A DNA stretch of 56,087 nucleotides from Acaryochloris sp. IP29b_bin.137. GTDB taxonomy: Bacteria; Cyanobacteriota; Cyanobacteriia; Thermosynechococcales; Thermosynechococcaceae. Both the position numbers and the translations under genes were made by a program. Below the pieces are notes generated by a model, which saw only the letters and a list, made by a program, of their open reading frames with translations, had not been told where the DNA came from and ran no database searches. This document shows, piece by piece, positions 3,853 through 56,087 of the stretch (the first letter of the stretch is position 1; each line of letters starts with the position of its first letter). The DNA is taken from the NCBI RefSeq assembly GCF_028285745.1, contig NZ_JANQOP010000047.1, forward strand, positions 1-56,087, given 5' to 3'.

Positions 3853-5520
3853 ATGAACACGGTTTCTGAGTCTCCACTCGACCATCCTTCTTCTGCTCCA
3901 ACACGACCCCCAATTGATCCTGCAGATCTTCACTTTCCTAGCGGTGCGATCGCGTTAGACTCATCCCTCTATATTGAGCGATTACCCCTTGAAGCCCAGG
4001 CCTATCAGGGCATCGAGAAACCAGGCGGCTTAGTACGTATTCAGGCTCCCCAAGGTATGGGGAAAAGTTCCCTATTATTGCGGCTAACTGCTTATGCTCG
4101 CGCCCAGGGCTATCAGACGGTAACGATCAACTTTCAAACCGCGGATCAAGACATTTTTACCAATATTGGCAAGTTTTTACGGTGGTTCTGCGCTAGCGTC
4201 ACTTATCAGCTTAGAACGCCCTCTTGTTTAGATGACTATTGGGATAACGACATTGGGGCGAAGCTAAGCTGCACCATGTATTTTGAAGATTATCTGCTGG
4301 CTGAGTTAGATACCCCCCTGGTCATTGCCCTTCAGCACGTTGAAGAGATTTTTGAACATGTCGCCATCGCCGTCGACTTTTTGCCCCTGTTACGCTTTTG
4401 GCATGAGCAAGCCAAACAAGGGGATGTTTTTCAGCATCTCCGACTTCTAGTCAGTCACTCCACGGAAGTGTATGTTCCCCTGAATATCAACCACTCGCCG
4501 TTTAATGTGGGCTTGCCGATTCGATTGCCGCCGTTTAATTTGGCCCAAGTTAAAGCATTAGCCTATGCCTATGGTTTGGGCTGGGAATCCGACCATGAGG
4601 CGCAGCAGTTAATGAACTTGGTGGGTGGACGTCCTGCGCTGGTCAATATGGCCTTGTATGACATCAGCTATGGCCAAAAGACTTTAGACAGGTTTTTGCA
4701 AGAGGCCCCTACCCAAACGAGCATCTACCGCCATCATCTCCAGAAGCTCTTAACCACGCTGAATCAGCAACCGGAGTTAGCTGCTGCCCTCAAACATGTG
4801 GTATCTGCAAGGAACGGTGTTGAGTTAGAACCAGTCATCGCCTATAAGCTTAATAGTTTAGGGTTAGTGGAACTGCGGGGAAATGAGTGTCTGACCTCCT
4901 GTGAACTCTACAGACAGTTTTTCGTCCACAAAACCTTCAGTCAACTAGATGCCTGGCGGAAACGGTTAGCGCAACTAGAAGAGGAGAATACCCATTTAAA
5001 ACAGCTTGTTAATCTAGATGCCCTCACTCAAGTGGCTAATCGTCGGTCCTTTGACGAATTTATTCATGCGAAGTGGCATCAATTGGCCGAGATGCAGGCA
5101 CCTTTAGCTGTGATCTTGGCAGATGTGGACTGTTTTAAGCTCTACAACGATACCTACGGTCATCAGGCTGGAGACCAGTGCCTACAACAGGTTGCTCAAG
5201 CCATTCAAAAGTGTGCCCATCGGGCATCAGACTTAGTGGCGCGATATGGTGGCGAAGAATTTGTAGTGGTGTTGCCCCTCACCACTGCAGAAAGTGCTGC
5301 CCAAATGGCTGAGACGATACTGAACTGCATCAAAGAGAAACAGATTATTCATGCTCGTTCTCCGATTGCCGTCAAAATTGTCACAGCCAGTATGGGGATA
5401 GCCAGTGTTATTCCTACGCTCAATCAGCACCCGGCCAGTTTAATCAAAGCGGCAGATCAGGCGCTATATCAGGCTAAAGCATTAGGGCGCGATCGCGTTC
5501 AGGTTGCCGACCAGCCTTAA
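3853..5520 (+). CDS. AAA-like ATPase domain fused to GGDEF diguanylate cyclase
   Basis: A 555-residue cytoplasmic protein. Residues about 25-370 are an AAA-like domain of the kind found N-terminally in cyanobacterial signalling proteins (PF14516 type), with Walker A APQGMGKSS (K71). The Walker B position reads ALQHVEE (161-165 region), so the usual DE-x-D acids are missing. A short coiled linker (about 372-390) leads into a GGDEF domain (about 391-550) with active-site GGEEF at 466-470 and the inhibitory I-site RASD at 457-460, exactly five residues upstream. It should therefore make cyclic-di-GMP from two GTP under product inhibition. No membrane segment is seen. It ends 4 bp before the next gene, so the two are probably cotranscribed. 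Confidence 0.92.
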   Translation: MNTVSESPLDHPSSAPTRPPIDPADLHFPSGAIALDSSLYIERLPLEAQAYQGIEKPGGLVRIQAPQGMGKSSLLLRLTAYARAQGYQTVTINFQTADQDIFTNIGKFLRWFCASVTYQLRTPSCLDDYWDNDIGAKLSCTMYFEDYLLAELDTPLVIALQHVEEIFEHVAIAVDFLPLLRFWHEQAKQGDVFQHLRLLVSHSTEVYVPLNINHSPFNVGLPIRLPPFNLAQVKALAYAYGLGWESDHEAQQLMNLVGGRPALVNMALYDISYGQKTLDRFLQEAPTQTSIYRHHLQKLLTTLNQQPELAAALKHVVSARNGVELEPVIAYKLNSLGLVELRGNECLTSCELYRQFFVHKTFSQLDAWRKRLAQLEEENTHLKQLVNLDALTQVANRRSFDEFIHAKWHQLAEMQAPLAVILADVDCFKLYNDTYGHQAGDQCLQQVAQAIQKCAHRASDLVARYGGEEFVVVLPLTTAESAAQMAETILNCIKEKQIIHARSPIAVKIVTASMGIASVIPTLNQHPASLIKAADQALYQAKALGRDRVQVADQP

Positions 5521-5524
5521 GCTT

Positions 5525-8500
5525 ATGCGATATCAGATTGGTGGCAGTCTTACAGCCAATGCGTCGACCTATATTGCCCGGCAAGCCGATCAGCAGATCT
5601 ATGCTGCCCTAAAACGCGGCGAGTTTTGCTATGTCCTGAACGCTCGGCAAATGGGCAAATCATCCCTACTCGTGCAGACACGTCACCGTTTGCAGGCGGA
5701 GGGCTATCGATGTGCAGTTGTCGATATGACCAATATCGGTAGCGAGAACATCACTCCCTTGCAGTGGTATAAGGGGGTGATCAAAGATCTATGGCGCAAC
5801 TTTAAGCTGATCCGCCAGTTCGACTTCAAATCTTGGTGGCAAGACGAAGCCGATATTTCTTTACTGCAGCGATTAAGTCGATTTATCAAGGACGGGCTGT
5901 TAGATCAGTTCCCCGATCAGCAACTGGTGATTTTTATCGATGAGATCGACAGTATTTTGGGATTGCCCTTTTCTGTCGATGACTTCTTTGCCCTGATTCG
6001 CTTTTGCTATAACCAACGGGCAGTGGATCCAGACTACTGTCGACTCAACTTTGCCCTTTTTGGCGTAGCCACACCGTCGGACCTAATCCAAAACCGTCAG
6101 CGTACGCCCTTTAATTTGGGGACTGCTATTCCTCTCCAAGGTTTTACGGTGGCGGAAAGTAAGATATTGGCCCAGGGGTTGGATTTGCAGGGTAGGGATG
6201 CCGATGCAATCTTAGCTGCGATTTTGTACTGGACCCAAGGTCAGCCGTTTCTGACCCAAAAGCTCTGTCAACTCGTGGCTCAAGCCAGCGATGAAGCTGT
6301 CAGCATTGCACCGGGGAAGGAAGCGAACTGGGTCGAGCAACTTGTGAAAGACCATATCCTTCAGCATTGGGAATCCCAGGATGAACCGGAACATTTAAGA
6401 ACGGTGCAGAATCGATTGCTCAATCATTCTGCTTCTGCTGGTCGGCGCTTAGGACTTTATCAGCAGGTGTTGAAGGCTAGCGCTATCCCGGCAGAAGAGA
6501 GCCCAGATCAAACCGACCTTATTCTATCGGGGTTAGTCGTTAAGCAGGACGGACAACTTCGGGTTAAGAACCCCATCTATCGCCAGGTTTTCAATCAAGC
6601 TTGGGTGGAGAAGCAGCTGGGCCGACTCCGTCCCTACAAAGCGTCTTTGGAATTTTGGTTGGCCTCAGCGCAGCAAGATGAATCCCGGTTATTGCGTGGT
6701 CAAACCCTGCAAGAGGCGCTGGACTGGTCCCAAGGGAAGCGACTTAGCGATGAGGATCATCAGTTTTTAACGGCGTCTGTGGAATGCGATCGCAAACAGA
6801 TTCAAATGACCCTCGAAGCCGAACGGGCACGAGCTATTGAAATCCAGCTTCAACAGGAACAGCAAACCACCAAACTGCAAAAGCGCTTCTCCATTACCGT
6901 CTCTATTGCCTTCTTAATTGCTGTGGGCTTAGGAGGAGCTGCCTATCAGCAAGCACAAACGGCCCAAAAACAGACTGAATTGGCCCAGGCCAGTGAGCAA
7001 AAGACGCTAGAAAGTAACATTAGGGCGCTCCTCTCCTCTTCCCAGGGAAATATGGATTCCCACCGACAGCTTGAAGCCCTCTCCGACATTATTCAAGCCC
7101 ATCAACAACTTGATCACCTGCAAAAGGGGGCTGATGGTCTAGCGAACGAGATCCAAGCCACACTCCGTAGTAACGTCCACCGGATGGTGGAGCGGAATCG
7201 TCTAACCTTAGGCGTTAAGGTCAAGCATGTTGCGATTAGTCCAGATGGCACCCAAATTGCCACTGCCGCTGCCGATGGCTCCGTCAGTCTTTGGGGTTGG
7301 GATGGACAAAGGCGATGGAAAAAGTTTAATCACCAAGCCGAGGTCAACCAAGTCGTCTTTAGTCCAGATGGGCAAACCCTTGCTTCAGCCTCAGCCGATA
7401 GAACCGTAAAGCTGTGGAATTTACAAGGCAAGGTCACTCATACCCTTTCATCGTTTGATGCTGAGGTCCGTGCCTTAGTCTTCAATGCTAAGGGGGATCG
7501 GATTGTGACGTCTACGAATAGCCACAAAGTACAGTCTTGGACCCGAACAGGCGAACTGATGAACTCCATCACCAAGACGAAGTTTTTTGGCCACAGCGCG
7601 GATGGTCGCTATCTTGCCAATAACTACAAAGGTCATGTCATTCAAATTCGCGCTGCCGATAGCACCCTGATTCGGGAGCTGCCCCCAACCCCCCAATTAT
7701 TGCGAATCATACGATTAAGCCCAAACGGGAACTATATTGCAGCGACGGGGCTGGATCATAAAATTCAGATCAGGACCAAAAAAGGGAAGTTAGTCAGTGA
7801 GTTGCCAGGGCATGGTGCCTTAATCCGAGATATGGCGTTTAGCCCCGATGGTGAACTAATCGCCTCGGTGTCATCCGACAAAACTGTGAAACTTTGGCAC
7901 CGAAATGGCCAGTTATTGAGAACCTTCAAGGGACATCAAGCGACCGTTTGGTCCGTCACATTTAGCCCAGATGGTCAGTTTTTATTATCTTCTTCAGAAG
8001 ACGGAACAGTGCGCTATTGGCAGCTTCACAATCCCTTTTGGCAACGGTTAGTTGGCCCCACAGATTTTCTCAGCCAAGTGGCCCATCGCCCGGATGGACA
8101 GCAATTGGCAGCGATTTCCCCTAGCCACAAAATTTATCGCTGGCATCGTCAGACATCAACAACCTTTGAAGCCGTGCCTCAAGTCATATCGCCTGAATTA
8201 GGTGGTCCCTTACATGGGTTGGCCTATCACCCTAACAAACCAGAACTCGTGACAACGGATCGCGGTGGCTATATTCATATCTGGAATGCAGATGGCTCAC
8301 TTCGCACCCGAAGATCAACTCCAAGCCGCCTATGGTCAGTAGAGTACAGTCCCGATGGTCACCAGTTAGCGATAGGATCCGCTGACAATACAATTCAACG
8401 CTGGCAATTTGATGATCAAGGGCAATTGGAACAGGCTCCCTTTCAAATTTTAGAGGGGCATCAAGCCACCGTTCGTGATGTTAGTTTTAGCCCCGACGGT

Positions 8501-9058
8501 CAATGGTTCGTCTCCGCTTCTCTCGACAAGACCCTAAAACTGTGGACAAGGGATGGCACCTTAAAAGCAACGCTATCCGAGCATCGTGCGGCTGTCCAAA
8601 GTGTGGTCATCAGTCCTAACAGCCAGTGGTTTGCTTCGGCTTCAGAAGATAGCGATATCAAGCTGTGGGCTCCTTCAGGTCAATTAATTCAAACCCTGCC
8701 TGATCATCAATCTGCGGTCCAGGAGGTCGCCATTAGCCCAGATGGCAAATGGTTAGCGTCTGCGGCTATGGATAACACGGTCAAACTCTGGCAGGTTGAT
8801 CTGTCAAGCTCGACACCAGCCACATTGGTTCGAACGTTAATTGGACATGATCGTGCGATCCGTAGCGTTGGGTTTAGTCCAGATGGGAAATCCTTAGTTT
8901 CAGCGAGCGATGACCAAACCCTAATGCGCTGGAATTTGGCGAAACTTCTACAGACAAAGGAAGAGGAATATGCTTGTCGTTGGATCTCAAATTTTCTAAA
9001 AAATAATACTCAGGGCCATCAGCATCGCCACCTCTGCTCGGCCCTGCACAAGCCTTAA
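5525..9058 (+). CDS. AAA-like NTPase with transmembrane segment and 14 WD40 repeats
   Basis: A 1177-residue protein starting at the ATG at 5525; a TTG at 5504 is in frame but would overlap the previous gene. Residues about 1-370 are an AAA-like domain related to that of the upstream gene, here with both nucleotide motifs intact: Walker A RQMGKSS (K45) and Walker B FIDEID (D139, E140, D142). A hydrophobic segment at about 453-475 follows a charged helical stretch and looks like one transmembrane helix or a coil anchor. From about residue 558 to near the C-terminus I count 14 WD40 repeats, enough for two seven-bladed propellers; several have clear GH...SPDG...LW signatures. Proteins of this type are thought to be sensor/scaffold ATPases; the ligand is unknown. 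Confidence 0.92.
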   Translation: MRYQIGGSLTANASTYIARQADQQIYAALKRGEFCYVLNARQMGKSSLLVQTRHRLQAEGYRCAVVDMTNIGSENITPLQWYKGVIKDLWRNFKLIRQFDFKSWWQDEADISLLQRLSRFIKDGLLDQFPDQQLVIFIDEIDSILGLPFSVDDFFALIRFCYNQRAVDPDYCRLNFALFGVATPSDLIQNRQRTPFNLGTAIPLQGFTVAESKILAQGLDLQGRDADAILAAILYWTQGQPFLTQKLCQLVAQASDEAVSIAPGKEANWVEQLVKDHILQHWESQDEPEHLRTVQNRLLNHSASAGRRLGLYQQVLKASAIPAEESPDQTDLILSGLVVKQDGQLRVKNPIYRQVFNQAWVEKQLGRLRPYKASLEFWLASAQQDESRLLRGQTLQEALDWSQGKRLSDEDHQFLTASVECDRKQIQMTLEAERARAIEIQLQQEQQTTKLQKRFSITVSIAFLIAVGLGGAAYQQAQTAQKQTELAQASEQKTLESNIRALLSSSQGNMDSHRQLEALSDIIQAHQQLDHLQKGADGLANEIQATLRSNVHRMVERNRLTLGVKVKHVAISPDGTQIATAAADGSVSLWGWDGQRRWKKFNHQAEVNQVVFSPDGQTLASASADRTVKLWNLQGKVTHTLSSFDAEVRALVFNAKGDRIVTSTNSHKVQSWTRTGELMNSITKTKFFGHSADGRYLANNYKGHVIQIRAADSTLIRELPPTPQLLRIIRLSPNGNYIAATGLDHKIQIRTKKGKLVSELPGHGALIRDMAFSPDGELIASVSSDKTVKLWHRNGQLLRTFKGHQATVWSVTFSPDGQFLLSSSEDGTVRYWQLHNPFWQRLVGPTDFLSQVAHRPDGQQLAAISPSHKIYRWHRQTSTTFEAVPQVISPELGGPLHGLAYHPNKPELVTTDRGGYIHIWNADGSLRTRRSTPSRLWSVEYSPDGHQLAIGSADNTIQRWQFDDQGQLEQAPFQILEGHQATVRDVSFSPDGQWFVSASLDKTLKLWTRDGTLKATLSEHRAAVQSVVISPNSQWFASASEDSDIKLWAPSGQLIQTLPDHQSAVQEVAISPDGKWLASAAMDNTVKLWQVDLSSSTPATLVRTLIGHDRAIRSVGFSPDGKSLVSASDDQTLMRWNLAKLLQTKEEEYACRWISNFLKNNTQGHQHRHLCSALHKP

Positions 9059-41833: not shown

Positions 41834-43267
41834 CTAATTTTGACTACTAACTAAACATAGGGTAGGGCCTATCTCTACTGATAAATTCAACTCTGCGTTT
41901 CTCAATATTTCCAGAATAGTGAGAAATTCTGGAGAAGATGCCAGTAATTTCAGTTTGTTTACGGTGAATGCCGTAGATATCGGCTCTGGCAGGTATCGTA
42001 ATTCTGAACCACTGAGAAAGGAGATGGCCTCTGGAATGGGTAGGGATGGCCAATAGTGCTCTCTTTGATAATGAACAAATTTGAGCGTACGAAATGCATC
42101 AAACCACACTCTCATGAAGAACTGGAAATGTTCAAGGTCATGGCATTGTTGGAAAGCTTGCTCAAGGGCTTGCTCCACTTGGAGATGGCGCAAGGTTTGC
42201 AGAAGAGAATGGCTCAGGCCTTGTTTTTGCCCCCAATCGTGGAGCTGCATCTTTTTCTTTGTCCACGTTTTCGTGTGAAACTCATTCCACAGCAACCGAT
42301 CGAGCTTTAGCCAACGCTGTAATTCCAGAAAAATCTGGGGATGATAGAGCTTGATGATTGGGTCACGAGCGAGTTTAACCATTGCTGCGCCTGTCCCAAA
42401 AGGCACCCGATGGGATAGCCGAGAAGATAGGGTCACCGCTGGTCCTCTTAAGCGCACCACTTTGCCCGTCTTGGCGAGCTTATTGAGCATATAAAAATCT
42501 TCTGCTGCTTGACGTTTGGGGAACCCTCGCACTTTTGCATAGTGCTCAGCGTTGATTTTCAATAAACTACCAATCGTCTGAAAAGCATAGGGGGAAGCAG
42601 CCTGGGATAATCCGAGGACATAATACCGTAAAGAAATTTCGTACTGGATGATCCCTGAATGCTGAGGGTGGTGGCAAAACGGGTAAATTGCGACCGCCAC
42701 ATCTGAGCCCAAGTCTGAGGTGTGAAAATAATCGTCTGGCAGTTTGACATCACCATCTGTGCAGTGAACCCAAGGAATGCTTACTTTTTGAGCAGCGATG
42801 CAGGCTAGGGCAATGTCACCCCCAATTTTGCGGGCCAGGCCCACACCCTGCTTATGGGGGAGTTGCCGAGTCCTGGTACAGCAATCAATCAGAAGTAAGG
42901 TATTTCCCGATCGTTGCTCAACGACGGTAAAGGAGACCTCTGGGTGGGGATTAAATTGTGCTAAGAACGCTTGGGTGCGACGGGTAGCAGCCTTATCCGC
43001 ATCCACTGAAGCATTCACCACCGCAATAATGAGCGTATTGCTCATGGTTTTAGGTAAGATGCTTTCCAGACAGTTGAGGGGTTCATCAAAGAGGGGAATG
43101 GCTAGGACAAATTGGTAAGTCTGGCGCAGGGTTGCTAGCCACTCGTTTTGAATAGTAATGACAATAGGTTCGGCATAGCGATCCAAGTAACGGCTGATTG
43201 TCTTAGCGGTCATAGAAGGAGGGGCGGATTTGAGGTCGTCGCACGATACTGCATCTGATTGAGCCAT
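41834..43267 (-). CDS. Glycosyltransferase of GT-A (family 2-like) fold
   Basis: A 477-residue protein from the ATG at 43267. After a short N-terminus (about 1-50), the GT-A half shows FVLAIPLFDEPLNCLESIL (about 53-71), TLIIAVVNAS, RKIGGDIALACIAAQK (about 144-160) and the divalent-metal motif as CTDGDVKLPDDYF (about 168-180; D-G-D in place of D-x-D), then GSLLKINAEHYAKVRGFPKRQAAEDFYML, which matches the acceptor-side ED motif. The C-terminal ~200 residues are helical and unassigned. Donor and acceptor are not readable from sequence. Downstream neighbour is unrelated; the gene is 56 bp from miaE on the same strand. Confidence 0.78.
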   Translation of the reverse strand: MAQSDAVSCDDLKSAPPSMTAKTISRYLDRYAEPIVITIQNEWLATLRQTYQFVLAIPLFDEPLNCLESILPKTMSNTLIIAVVNASVDADKAATRRTQAFLAQFNPHPEVSFTVVEQRSGNTLLLIDCCTRTRQLPHKQGVGLARKIGGDIALACIAAQKVSIPWVHCTDGDVKLPDDYFHTSDLGSDVAVAIYPFCHHPQHSGIIQYEISLRYYVLGLSQAASPYAFQTIGSLLKINAEHYAKVRGFPKRQAAEDFYMLNKLAKTGKVVRLRGPAVTLSSRLSHRVPFGTGAAMVKLARDPIIKLYHPQIFLELQRWLKLDRLLWNEFHTKTWTKKKMQLHDWGQKQGLSHSLLQTLRHLQVEQALEQAFQQCHDLEHFQFFMRVWFDAFRTLKFVHYQREHYWPSLPIPEAISFLSGSELRYLPEPISTAFTVNKLKLLASSPEFLTILEILRNAELNLSVEIGPTLCLVSSQN

Positions 43268-43323
43268 CACAAGTGATTTTCGGATTTATCCTGCCCATGG
43301 GTAGCGGGCATGGGCATTGCCCG

Positions 43324-44615: not shown

Positions 44616-45776
44616 TTAACGGTGGCTCGTCTTCATCTGTTCATAAGCCCAGTCTAACCAAGGTGTCAACGCTTCAAGATCAGCGGTATCCACGGTAGCT
44701 CCACCCCAAATCCTCAACCCTGGAGGAGCATCTCGGTAAGACCCAATATCATAGGCAACTCCCTCCTTATCTAAGAGGGAAGCTAGCTGTTTTGCTCCTT
44801 TGGCCTGGTCTTCGGCAGAAAGCCCGGTATACCAAGGATCAACGATTTTGAGGCAGATGGATGTGTTAGAACGAGTAGCTGGATCAACGGCTAAAAAGTC
44901 AACCCAAGGGGTTTGATTCACCCAGTTGGTGATGGCAGTGAGATTGGCTTGCGATCGCGCCATCAATGCCGAGACCCCACCCAGGCTCTCAGCCCATTTC
45001 AGCCCATCTAAAGCATCTTCTACACAGAGCATTGAGGGGGTATTGATCGTTGACCCTTGGAAAATTGCCGCGTTGAGCTTGCCCTTTTTGGTCAACTGAA
45101 AAATCTTCGGCAGCGGCCAAGCGGGGGTATAGGACTCCAACCGCTCAACAGCCCGGGGGCTAAGGACTAACATGCCGTGGGCTGCTTCACCCCCCATCAC
45201 CTTTTGCCAGGACCAGGTGACCGCATCCAGCTTGGTCCAAGGGATATCCATAGCAAAGACAGCAGAGGTAGCATCCGCAATGGTCAGTCCTTGACGGTTA
45301 TCTGCAATCCAGTCGCCGTTGGGAACTTTGACCCCGGAGGTGGTGCCGTTCCAGGTGAAGACAATATCGCGATCGCAATCCAGTTGCGACAGATCCGGCA
45401 AATGACCATATTCAGCCTTGGTAATGCGGCAATCTGGCAGTTTCAATTGCTTTTGTACATCCGTCACCCAGCCAGAGCCGAAACTTTCCCAAGCCACCAT
45501 CTCTACACCGCGAGCACCGAGAAGCGACCACATGGCAATTTCCACAGCACCCGTATCAGAAGCGGGGACAATGCCGCAGAGATAATCTTCAGGAATGCCG
45601 AGGATTGCCTTGGTGCGATCAATTACCTCTTTCAGACGGGCTTTGCCGGGACCAGACCGATGGGAGCGACCCACCAACGCATTATTAAGAGCTTCCAGAC
45701 TCCAACCAGGGCGCTTGGAGCATGGCCCGGAAGAGAAGTAAGGACGTTGAGGACGTTGGCTAGGTTGGGGAGTCAT
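44616..45776 (-). CDS. serC: Phosphoserine aminotransferase
   Basis: A 386-residue enzyme of normal SerC length from the ATG at 45776 (longer frame to 45818). It starts with [20 protein letters not shown] and has [14 protein letters not shown] (about residues 40-53), the PLP Lys in [17 protein letters not shown] (K about 195), [14 protein letters not shown] and [10 protein letters not shown] near the C-terminus, all characteristic. It converts 3-phosphohydroxypyruvate and glutamate to phosphoserine in serine biosynthesis, with PLP. This sequence type is the long alphaproteobacterial/cyanobacterial group. Standing alone in the reverse orientation; the next gene up is divergent. Confidence 0.93.
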
Positions 45777-45978
45777 ATCAAATTCCACATCGGAGTCAGG
45801 ACTATCGAAATGCAGCAAAACTTGAACAGCTTGCCCTATAAGTTAATTGAACGAAGTTAATTAGTCTAAGCTGCTTCGCCTGGGATCTAGCGTTCCGAAT
45901 TATTTTTTTAAGATCTGAAAGGGGCTTGCTAGAGCACTGATAAACTTGAGTTCTCCCGTCGCCCACAATCTGTAACCC

Positions 45979-51601: not shown

Positions 51602-54600
51602 ATGCCCCGCCGTGCTAATGCTTCCAAACAAGAGAAAAAAGCAGCGGCTAGTCGTGCATCTACTAATGGTCGGGTCAAGAAAGTCCAGATTCCCGCAGAC
51701 CATCGAATACGGATTCGAGGCGCCCGTCAGCATAACCTCAAAAATATTGATTTAGACCTACCCCGCGATCAGCTGATTGTGTTTACAGGCGTATCGGGGT
51801 CGGGGAAATCTTCCCTGGCCTTTGACACCATCTTTGCAGAGGGGCAACGACGCTATGTGGAATCCCTTAGTGCCTATGCCCGCCAGTTCTTAGGCCAGGT
51901 CGATAAGCCGGATGTGGATGCTATCGAAGGTCTGAGTCCAGCGATTTCCATCGACCAAAAATCTACATCCCATAACCCCCGATCCACAGTGGGGACGGTG
52001 ACAGAGATTTACGACTACTTGCGCCTACTGTACGGACGGGCAGGAGAACCCCATTGTCCCCATTGCGATCGCACCATCACCCCCCAAACCATCGATCAGA
52101 TGGTAGATCAGGTGATGGAACTGTCGGAGAAAGCGCGATTCCAGATTCTGGCCCCCGTGGTTCGAGGTAAAAAAGGCACCCATAAAAAGCTGCTGTCGAG
52201 TCTGGCTTCGGAGGGATTTGTTCGAGTGCGGGTAAATGGTGACGTGCGAGAACTCAGCGATGCCATCGTCTTGGATAAAAACTTCAAGCATGACATTGAA
52301 GTGGTGGTTGATCGATTGGTGATGAAGCCAGGGATTGAGGAACGACTTGCAGATTCGCTATCCACGGGACTGCAGCGCGCTGAAGGCATTGTAATGGTTG
52401 AGGTCCTGCCTACCCCCTCCGATAAAGTGGTGCCCATTACCCAAGCTAAATCGCTTAAGGTGGCCGAAGCAGAAGGCAGTTATGGCGACGACACCCAGCC
52501 CAAACTCTTTGTTTTTTCCGAGAACTTCGCCTGTCCTGAGCATGGGGCAGTGATGGAAGAACTCTCGCCTCGTCTGTTCTCTTTTAACTCACCCTATGGG
52601 GCCTGCCCGGCATGTCATGGATTGGGGAGCCTTAAGGTCTTTTCTGAAGATCTAATTGTCCCGGACCCCAATCTGCCTGTCTATGCCGCCATTGCTCCCT
52701 GGTCAGAGAAAGACAATACTTACTACTTTTCGCTGCTTTATAGCGTGGGGCAGGCGTTTGGGTTTGAGCTACAAACGAGCTGGGCTGATCTAACGGACGA
52801 GCAGCGCCATATCGTCTTACATGGCACTAAAGAACCGATTTATATGGAAGTGGATTCTCGCTATCGAGAATCGAAGGGCTATCACAAACGATATGAGGGT
52901 GTGATTCCCCTGCTGGATCGGCATTACCGGGAAACCACCTCCGAGCAGTATCGGCAAAAGCTAGAAAAATATCTGATTCAGCGGCCCTGTGAAGTCTGTG
53001 GGGGGCGGCGCTTAAAGCCAGAGGCATTATCGGTGCGGATGGGCCAATTCTGCCTGCCCGATCTGACTAGCGTTTCTATTCGCGATTGTCTGGAACGGAT
53101 CAATGCCATGACCTTGAGTGCTCGCCAGGCCAAAATTGGGGAGCTGGTGCTTAAGGAAATTAAGGCTCGTTTGCAGTTTTTGCTGGACGTGGGGCTGGAT
53201 TATCTCACCCTAGACCGAACCGCCATGACCCTATCGGGAGGTGAGGCCCAGCGGATTCGTCTGGCGACTCAAATTGGTGCGGGGTTAACGGGGGTTCTCT
53301 ACGTATTGGATGAGCCCAGTATTGGTTTGCATCAGCGGGATAATCATCGGTTGCTGCAAACCCTAACCAAGCTGCGAGACCTCGGTAATACCTTGATTGT
53401 GGTGGAGCATGACGAGGATACGATTCGAGCTGCGGATTACCTAGTGGATATCGGTCCAGCGGCGGGGGTACATGGCGGCGATATTGTTGTGCAGGGGGGC
53501 TTAGAAGAACTGCTGGATAACGGCGAATCCTTGACGGGGGCTTACCTGTCTGGGAAACGGGTGATTCCTACCCCGCCTGAACGCCGAGCCGGGAATGGCC
53601 GGGCGCTGCGACTCCACAATGCCTATCGCAACAATCTCCAAAGCCTGGATGTGGAGATTCCCTTGGGCAAGCTGGTCTGTATTACCGGGGTATCGGGGTC
53701 GGGTAAATCGACGCTGATGAATGAGTTGCTTTATCCCGCTTTGCAGCATCACTTGGGCTTTAAGGTGCCGTTCCCGAATGAGTTAGACCGGGTGGCGGGT
53801 CTGAAGAGTTTGGATAAAGCCATCGTTATTGACCAATCTCCGATTGGCCGGACGCCTCGTTCTAACCCCGCTACCTATACGGGGGTATTTGACGTGATTC
53901 GGAGTGTGTTTTCGGAAACGGTAGAAGCCAAGGCCCGGGGCTATAAACCCGGTCGTTTTTCCTTTAACGTTAAGGGCGGGCGCTGTGAAGCCTGCGGTGG
54001 GCAAGGCGTAAATGTAATTGAGATGAATTTCCTGCCGGATGTCTATGTGCAGTGCGAGGTTTGTAAGGGGGCACGGTATAACCGGGAAACGCTGCAGGTG
54101 AAGTACAAGGGTAAGTCGATTGCGGATGTGCTGGCGATGACGGCGGAGGAAGCCCTGAAGTTTTGTGAGAATATCCCGAAGGCGGCGAATAAGCTGCAGA
54201 CGATGGTGGATGTGGGATTAGGATATGTGCGGCTTGGGCAAACGGCACCCACTTTGTCGGGAGGGGAAGCCCAGCGGTTGAAGTTGGCGACGGAGTTGTC
54301 TCGGCGGGCGACGGGTAAAACGCTGTATTTAATTGATGAACCGACGACGGGTTTGTCTTTTTATGATGTGCACAAGCTGCTGGATGTGTTGCAGCGGCTT
54401 GTGGATAAGGGCAATTCGGTGTTGGTGATTGAGCATAATTTGGATGTGATTCGCTGCTCGGATTGGGTGATTGATCTGGGGCCAGATGGGGGCGATCGTG
54501 GGGGTGAGTTGGTGGCGACGGGGACACCCGAGACGGTTGCGAATGTGGCTAAGTCTTATACGGGGCAATATCTTAAGCAGGTGCTAGCGCTTCATCCGCC

Positions 54601-54622
54601 CACCATTGCTGCTGACGCTTAA
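51602..54622 (+). CDS. uvrA: UvrABC system protein A
   Basis: A 1006-residue UvrA, slightly longer than the usual ~940-970 because of a basic Lys/Arg/Ala N-terminal extension of about 35 residues. Two ABC ATPase halves: Walker [10 protein letters not shown] (about residues 62-70) and GVSGSGKST (about 698-706), with signatures [14 protein letters not shown] and [14 protein letters not shown]. Zinc-binding [18 protein letters not shown] and [10 protein letters not shown]...[10 protein letters not shown] sites are present. UvrA finds DNA damage as a dimer and loads UvrB. The TIR-WD40 gene follows 118 bp downstream on the same strand. Confidence 0.97.
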
Positions 54623-54739: not shown

Positions 54740-56087
54740 GTGGCAGCTAATTTCCAATACGATGTATTTCTCAGCCACAGTACCCAGAATAAAGATGTAG
54801 TGCGGAGGATTGCAGAGCGTCTTAAGTCTGATGGGGTGGAAGTTTGGTTTGATGAGTGGTGCATTCAACCTGGGGACAATATTCCAGCCAAAATTGAGGA
54901 AGGGTTAGAACAGTCCCGAGTGTTGGTGCTGTGCATGTCGGCTGAGGCATTTGGGTCGGATTGGGCACAGTTGGAGAGCTATACCTTTCGATTTAAAGAC
55001 CCACTAAACAAGGACCGTCGCTTTATTCCCCTAAAGTTAGATGACGCCCCGATCAAAGGATCGTTGGCACAGTTTAGCTATATCGATTGGCGTAGGCAGG
55101 ATAGCTCTGAAGCATATGGCAAACTGCTGACAACTTGTAAACTTCAGCAAGACGCTCCATTACCAAACCCAAAACAACTCACTCAAGACGAATTTAAGTT
55201 AAAGATTCTATCGCTCGGACACACTGACTCCGTCAGGAGCGTGGCCTTCAGCGCCGACGGTCGCCGCGCCCTCTCCGGCTCTGATGACAACACCGTGCGC
55301 TTGTGGGACGTCGATACCGGACAATCCCTCAGGGTCATGGAAGGACACACTCACGACGTCTTGAGCGTGGCCTTCAGCGCCGACGGTCGCCGCGCCCTCT
55401 CCGGCTCCTCTGACGGCACCGTGCGCTTGTGGGACGTCGATACCGGACAAACCCTCAGGGTCATGGAAGGACACACTGACGACGTCAATAGCGTGGCCTT
55501 CAGCGCCGACGGTCGCCGCGCCCTCTCCGGCTCCTATGACGACACCGTGCGCTTGTGGGACGTCGATACCGGACAATCCCTCCGAGTCATGGAAGGACAC
55601 ACTGACTCCGTCAGGAGCGTGGCCTTCAGCGCCGACGGTCGCCGCGCCCTCTCCGGCTCCTCTGACAACACCGTGCGCTTGTGGGACGTCGATACCGGAC
55701 AAACTCTCCGAGTCATGGAAGGACACACTTCCTCCGTCTATAGCGTGGCCTTCAGCGCCGACGGTCGCCGCGCCCTCTCCGGCTCTGATGACAACACCGT
55801 GCGCTTGTGGGACGTCGATACTGGACAATCCCTCAGGGTCATAGAAGGCCACGCTCCAGACGGCGTCAGTGTGTCCTTCCATGACTCGGAGGGATTGTCC
55901 GGTATCGACGTCCCACAAGCGCACGGTGCGGTCATTAGAGCTGGAGAGGGCGCGGCGACCGTCGGCGCTGAAGGCCACGCTCCTGACGGAGTCAGTGTGT
56001 CCTTCCATGACTCGGAGAGTTTGTCCGGTATCGACGTCCCACAAGCGCACGGTGTTGTCAGAGGAGCCGGAGAGGGCGCGGCGACCG
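54740..56087 (+). CDS. TIR domain fused to WD40 repeats, continuing past the window
   Basis: GTG start at 54740, supported by AGGAG at 54729-54733; an ATG at 54736 is in another frame and stops after four codons. Residues about 5-140 form a TIR domain: FQYDVFLSHSTQNKD at the start, VWFDEWCIQPGDNIPAKIEEG, SRVLVLCMSAEAFG and a W-x3-E motif (W75, E79), the glutamate position used by NAD-cleaving TIR enzymes. From residue 160 five WD40 units of 42 residues follow, DNA almost identical. At 55844-55852 the array turns to reverse-complement copies, so the remaining translation (still open, no stop) is not WD40-like. No ATPase domain lies between TIR and WD40. The role as immune or death effector is inference from TIR families. 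Confidence 0.8.
   Translation, partial: MAANFQYDVFLSHSTQNKDVVRRIAERLKSDGVEVWFDEWCIQPGDNIPAKIEEGLEQSRVLVLCMSAEAFGSDWAQLESYTFRFKDPLNKDRRFIPLKLDDAPIKGSLAQFSYIDWRRQDSSEAYGKLLTTCKLQQDAPLPNPKQLTQDEFKLKILSLGHTDSVRSVAFSADGRRALSGSDDNTVRLWDVDTGQSLRVMEGHTHDVLSVAFSADGRRALSGSSDGTVRLWDVDTGQTLRVMEGHTDDVNSVAFSADGRRALSGSYDDTVRLWDVDTGQSLRVMEGHTDSVRSVAFSADGRRALSGSSDNTVRLWDVDTGQTLRVMEGHTSSVYSVAFSADGRRALSGSDDNTVRLWDVDTGQSLRVIEGHAPDGVSVSFHDSEGLSGIDVPQAHGAVIRAGEGAATVGAEGHAPDGVSVSFHDSESLSGIDVPQAHGVVRGAGEGAAT
55217..55846 (+). repeat. Five direct 126-bp WD40 units
   Basis: Units begin with GGACAC at 55217, 55343, 55469, 55595 and 55721, exactly 126 bp apart. GTGCGCTTGTGG starts at 55295, 55421, 55547, 55673 and 55799. 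Between units only a few codons vary (e.g. the two or three after GHT and those after SGS), the rest is DNA-identical, unlike the other WD40 gene in the window, where the repeats are diverged. Such homogeneity implies recent amplification or gene conversion. Confidence 0.92.
55844..56087 (-). repeat. Reverse-complemented WD40 units (inverted part of the array)
   Basis: From the shared GAAGG-n-CAC at 55844-55852 to the window end, the plus strand reads as the reverse complement of the 126-bp unit. CGCAC sites recur at 55920 and 56046, again 126 bp apart. On the minus strand the sense WD40 translation resumes: SGSSDNTVRLWDVDTGQT, then a variant unit with SSSNDRT and GHTDAVWSVAF. Because these variants do not occur in the direct units, the right part is not an exact mirror. 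Confidence 0.88.

Follow-up and report, generated by a model that had tools for sequence, protein, structure and literature searches.

An apparent strand switch within a cyanobacterial TIR-WD40 gene and its probable origin as a fold-back or misassembly at a contig end

Does the WD40 array of a TIR-WD40 gene in Acaryochloris sp. IP29b_bin.137 reverse its orientation within an open reading frame, or does the apparent reversal originate from the assembly of near-identical repeats? The window, i.e., the whole stretch of DNA analysed here, is the entire contig C68 (56,087 bases) of a draft genome that comprises 373 contigs and 5.5 Mb and is 87.8% complete. The contig stops at position 56087, and the inverted stretch constitutes its final 244 bases. 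The features that define the locus are the following:

51602-54622, plus strand: UvrA-like gene (ORF of 1006 aa), the syntenic anchor 5′ of the TIR-WD40 gene, with 87.5% DNA identity to the same-genus genome G001
54740-55216, plus strand: TIR domain and linker, the N-terminus of the gene, with the GTG start as listed (TIR_2, E 8.6e-29)
55217-55843, plus strand: five 126-nt WD40 units in sense orientation, as delimited in the unit table (WD40, E 2.2e-65)
55844-55848, no strand assigned: GAAGG microhomology at the orientation switch, pairing with CCTTC of GTGGCCTTC in the upstream units
55844-56087, minus strand: reverse-complement WD40 sequence up to the contig end, read here as a fold-back or misassembly, without a functional plus-strand feature

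The first of these ORFs is presumably UvrA-like, as judged from its sequence. The sense units begin at 55217, 55343, 55469, 55595 and 55721. The original prediction placed a flip of the array at 55844; five sense units are indeed followed by a 244-nt reverse complement, but the sense sequence ends at 55843, not at 55846. No site-specific recombinase was detected among 10 ORFs of the window that were chosen by size and scanned for families. Elsewhere in the window, two adjacent genes (3853-5517 and 5504-9055) each open with an AAA_35 domain, one of them containing GGDEF and the other a large WD40 region, and two minus-strand ORFs of 478 and 400 aa (41837-43270 and 44619-45818, respectively) have no Pfam match at E <= 1e-5.

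The junction and the inverted tail

The orientation switch is located inside a blade. At the junction, the sense units read CATGGAAGGACAC, the inverted donor GCTGAAGGCCACGC and the contig CATAGAAGGCCACGC, the common part being GAAGG. Position 55843 is an A, where the other sense units carry G and the inverted donor would be expected to contribute T; along with 55822, it is one of two bases in the last sense unit that deviate from all other units, and both may be errors or variants.

The tail (55844-56087) and the sense stretches form inverted arms of 244 nt with 90-93% complementarity, far above chance. Its terminal part, 55994-56087, is the exact reverse complement of C68 55636-55729 (94 nt, unit 4 plus 9 nt of unit 5), and its initial part, 55844-55928, is the exact reverse complement of positions 227-311 of C132, another contig of the same assembly (85 nt); altogether, exact reverse copies of known sense sequence cover 179 of the 244 tail bases. 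The remainder carries the SSSNDRT variant. SSSNDRT and GHTDAVW had both been described as confined to the tail, which is accurate for SSSNDRT, absent from all sense units of C68 and C132, but not for GHTDAVW, present in one sense unit of C132. The argument against a fold-back that was built on these supposedly private variants thus fails, at least in part, given that SSSNDRT may come from the missing middle of the array.

The minus strand of the tail codes for normal WD40 sequence, and the tail units differ from other units almost only at codons that are variable among the sense units too, which implies that these were sense units until very recently. Judging from this pattern, the tail looks like the middle units of the same array in reverse. 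Following the unit-4-like sequence, the sense copy continues into SSVY, whereas the tail reads DSVR-SSSNDRT. The exact 20-mer of the unit occurs 8 times in the genome, 6 times on C68 and twice on C132, and a genome search confined it to these two contigs; thus, the assembly lacks the central units of the array, from which SSSNDRT can originate. A template for targeted hypermutation, i.e., an exact copy of the unit elsewhere in the genome, was also considered and rejected because the 20-mer search returned none.

As originally predicted, the plus frame continues past the junction, and it has no stop up to the last base of the contig. Stop codons number 0, 3 and 16 in the minus frames of the five-unit array and 0, 0 and 5 in the plus frames of the tail, so the open frame across the switch is likely to have arisen by chance; with two of the three plus frames of the tail open, we discarded the open frame as a sign of function. 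The corresponding array of G001 also has an open antisense stretch, of 223 codons.

Probable continuation of the gene on a second contig

To determine the orientation of the array, it had been proposed to look beyond 56087. This position is the end of C68, but C132 (3889 bases) opens inside a matching sense array, in which a partial unit precedes three full units and a diverged last unit. The WD40 units are followed, without an intervening stop, by a Roc/Ras GTPase domain (Roc, E 7.1e-17), a central region lacking Pfam matches and a DUF4365 domain (E 6.5e-25). PADLOC models of Ago-associated nucleases likewise match the DUF4365 part (E 2.9e-11). No COR family was found among the 4 Pfam matches at E <= 0.01 of this Roc-containing protein. 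The next gene on C132 is FAD-binding monooxygenase-like.

In G001, the locus lies on a single 4.5-Mb contig with all genes on one strand, in the order ndh-like, UvrA-like, decayed TIR, sense WD40 array, DUF4365 and FAD monooxygenase. C68 and C132 map to opposite sides of this locus, collinearly and on the same strand: the ndh-like and UvrA-like genes at the end of C68 match G001 over 5.7 kb with 87.5% identity, and the DUF4365 and monooxygenase regions of C132 show 81% and 88% identity, respectively, with no match to the Roc part of C132 at the G001 locus. Given this collinearity, C68 and C132 are most likely the two ends of one locus, with the gap inside the array. The C132 monooxygenase is closely matched in only 2 of 7 genomes of this genus, namely the source genome and G001. 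The G001 array comprises seven units, every one in sense, and the only minus-strand matches of C68 to this locus come from the C68 tail, so the comparison with a related genome, which had been suggested as a check for an inversion, did not bear one out. The TIR remnant between the UvrA-like gene and the array in G001 has 44% identity. Overall, the G001 locus (L249, G001:C1:2665000-2679000, approximately 5716-7399) has the appearance of a decaying syntenic copy, in which the TIR remnant contains four stops, the WD40 frame comprises seven units, DUF4365 is encoded in a frame of its own and the Roc part is missing.

Window positions 54740-55843 and positions 3-2519 of L009 (C132) are therefore likely to belong to one gene with the architecture TIR - WD40 array - Roc/Ras GTPase - DUF4365, so that what was probably recovered is a true gene divided between two contigs. 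Joined in this way, the gene has candidate effectors at both ends, with the DUF4365 part being nuclease-like by its PADLOC match. By analogy of domains, its product might sense an invader and trigger the TIR or the DUF4365 part.

Origin of the orientation switch

The properties of the contig ends are informative with regard to how the switch arose. In a survey of 156 readable ends of 93 contigs, C68 and C132 included, 45 ends match another place in the fetched sequence exactly over at least 20 bases. For 42 of these 45, the match is 94-99 bases long, which points to an assembly graph with a k near 99. At the right end of C68, the match extends over 94 nt and involves the contig's own unit 4 in reverse orientation; of the 42 ends, this is the only one with a partner internal to a contig. 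Thus, the contig appears to stop where the reversed path meets sequence that it already contains. By contrast with these overlaps, the strands match over 5 nt at the junction, so a graph with k=99 alone is insufficient and the join must be present in the reads, be it through a chimeric read or through a rare molecule that is real. We also searched for fold-backs at the ends of sister contigs, using C132 together with 100 further contigs, each over its first 20 kb; with C68 excluded and 9 of the 101 sampled contigs left out because they were all N, none was found at the 154 ends of the remaining 92 contigs, so the artefact reading gains no support from them. Separately, both ends of L175 (G000:C169; 1-97 and 4812-4908) form a perfect 97-nt inverted repeat of graph-overlap length, and its final 98 nt also match L216.

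Inverted units were not detected in 148 loci outside the source genome, 112 of which have direct-repeat arrays of at least 300 nt; after removal of duplicates, the survey covered 133 loci, 103 arrays and 189,108 nt. The positive control, the tail of the window, yielded six inverted matches, and the survey would overlook strongly diverged arrays. Self-palindromic matches in L022 and L256 (63-68% identity) were taken as noise. A literature search on inverted WD40 units found no paper, which is not proof of absence.

We conclude that the orientation switch is very probably a fold-back chimera or misassembly at the end of a contig, within an array that short reads failed to resolve. Misassembly was one of three options in the original prediction and is the best supported of these. 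Under this explanation, the genome would contain one long TIR - WD40 array - Roc/Ras GTPase - DUF4365 gene, the near-identical 126-nt units of which would not be separated by a de Bruijn graph at a k near 99, such that the array would be split between C68 (5′ end) and C132 (3′ end), with the middle units lost from the assembly. At the end of C68, the 3′ terminus of a sense unit, ...GAAGG, would then have become linked to the complement of the CCTTC of a different unit: such a terminus could anneal to the CCTTC within the GTGGCCTTC of any unit and prime synthesis backwards on its own strand. The path would return on the opposite strand of the middle units, through DAVW, SSSNDRT and a unit-4-like unit, until it met the reverse strand of unit 4, where the contig would terminate. 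The join was presumably made by a chimeric molecule or read, generated by a library hairpin or an amplification fold-back, and we infer that SSSNDRT represents a middle unit of the sense array. The direct observations behind this scenario are the position at the contig end, the sense continuation on C132, the all-sense collinear relative, the exact reverse copies and the k of about 99. Counted against it are the junction match of only 5 nt, which demands that reads carry the join, at least as a chimera; the lack of a general excess of fold-backs in the assembly (154 ends, 92 contigs); the occurrence of SSSNDRT in the inverted tail only; and the fact that C68 and C132 would also be compatible with an inverted segment inside the array and a return to sense units after it.

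The last point is the core of the main competing scenario, in which a real inverted segment, fixed or present in part of the population, arose within the array via fold-back template switching or recombination. The open frame across the junction, the return of C132 to the sense orientation, as an internal inversion needs, and the requirement that the join be in the reads given the 5-nt strand match are all compatible with such an event. However, neither the 112 arrays among the 148 other loci nor the syntenic array of G001 contain inverted units, the inverted units keep the minus-strand WD40 coding expected of units that were in sense until very recently, the switch interrupts a blade and the tail end resembles an ordinary graph end. 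Furthermore, no antisense-to-sense return junction was found in the assembly, which has a single junction, with the 5-nt match. The in-place inversion, which was among the original options, gained no positive support and is, in our assessment, unlikely. If it were true, the protein would include a non-WD40 stretch, perhaps a variant or a switch. One specific version, in which part of the population carries a true GAAGG/CCTTC fold-back inversion, such that a portion of the sensor is replaced by an antisense-coded stretch whose frame is open owing to codon usage, is quite improbable; if real, it would be an unusual route to changing a sensor domain. The third of the original options, a further, minus-strand WD40 gene converging on the TIR-WD40 gene, could account for the WD40 units coded on that strand from the contig end inward, but the minus-strand array breaks mid-unit at the junction, after which the frame remains open and enters the antisense of the first array. 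In addition, the exact unit 20-mer is restricted to C68 and C132, and both C132, with its sense array and the 3′ part of the gene, and the collinear order in G001 indicate that a single gene, on a single strand, occupies the interval from the UvrA-like gene to the monooxygenase. Lacking a 3′ end of its own, the convergent gene was rejected as highly improbable. Nor do we favour a mixture of strains, in which two array alleles of related cells were misjoined without a chimeric molecule: SSVY and DSVR-SSSNDRT after the unit-4-like sequence might be two alleles, or else two repeats, but alleles alone leave a strand switch with 5 shared bases unexplained, and an inverted molecule or read would be needed in any case, which makes this explanation extremely doubtful.

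Reading the switch as an artefact removes a striking, probably false lead. It also calls for caution, because arrays of near-identical WD40 units in draft genomes may end in reversed copies with open frames that mimic fused or switched genes.

Relationship to known artefacts and proteins

Two published artefacts offer parallels. Star et al. (2014, PMC3946424), in the excerpts considered here, describe hairpin fold-back during library preparation that yields reverse-complement 3′ ends, and according to the excerpts of Lasken and Stockwell (2007, PMC1855051), inversions make up 85% of the chimeras in MDA, with short stretches of complementarity as primers. In both cases, as in the C68 tail, sense sequence is followed by its nearby reverse complement with a short complementary join; unlike those artefacts, however, the present one is known from a contig rather than from reads, and most of its template belongs to array sequence that the assembly lacks. 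The fungal NLRs HET-D and HET-E, as presented in the excerpts of PMC12222747, similarly contain 126-nt (42-aa) WD40 units of very high identity for which short-read assemblies are unreliable, with repeats dropped or invented, although there the array belongs to a fungal NLR and here to a bacterial gene with TIR, Roc/Ras and DUF4365.

With respect to the protein itself, the excerpts of PMC7159879 and PMC10907252 cover conflict systems with propellers and TIR domains and do not treat the TIR-WD40-Roc/Ras-DUF4365 architecture. We scanned six relatives for families. Among the matches listed, the bacterial proteins L248, L252 and L258 share the Roc/Ras GTPase domain with the protein reconstructed here; as in the latter, WD40 precedes Roc in L248 and L252, and TIR is present in L252 and L258. 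The TIR domain is N-terminal here, in contrast to the C-terminal position in 3 of the 6 relatives (L251, L252 and L258, among the matches listed). L248 (G000:C106, 2066-5821), a second WD40-Roc protein of the source genome, ends in a metallophosphatase domain, whereas the present protein ends in DUF4365. Judged by its domains, the TIR-WD40-Roc/Ras-DUF4365 protein thus resembles the known WD40-Roc proteins with effector domains and would at most add a new representative to a kind of protein that is already known.
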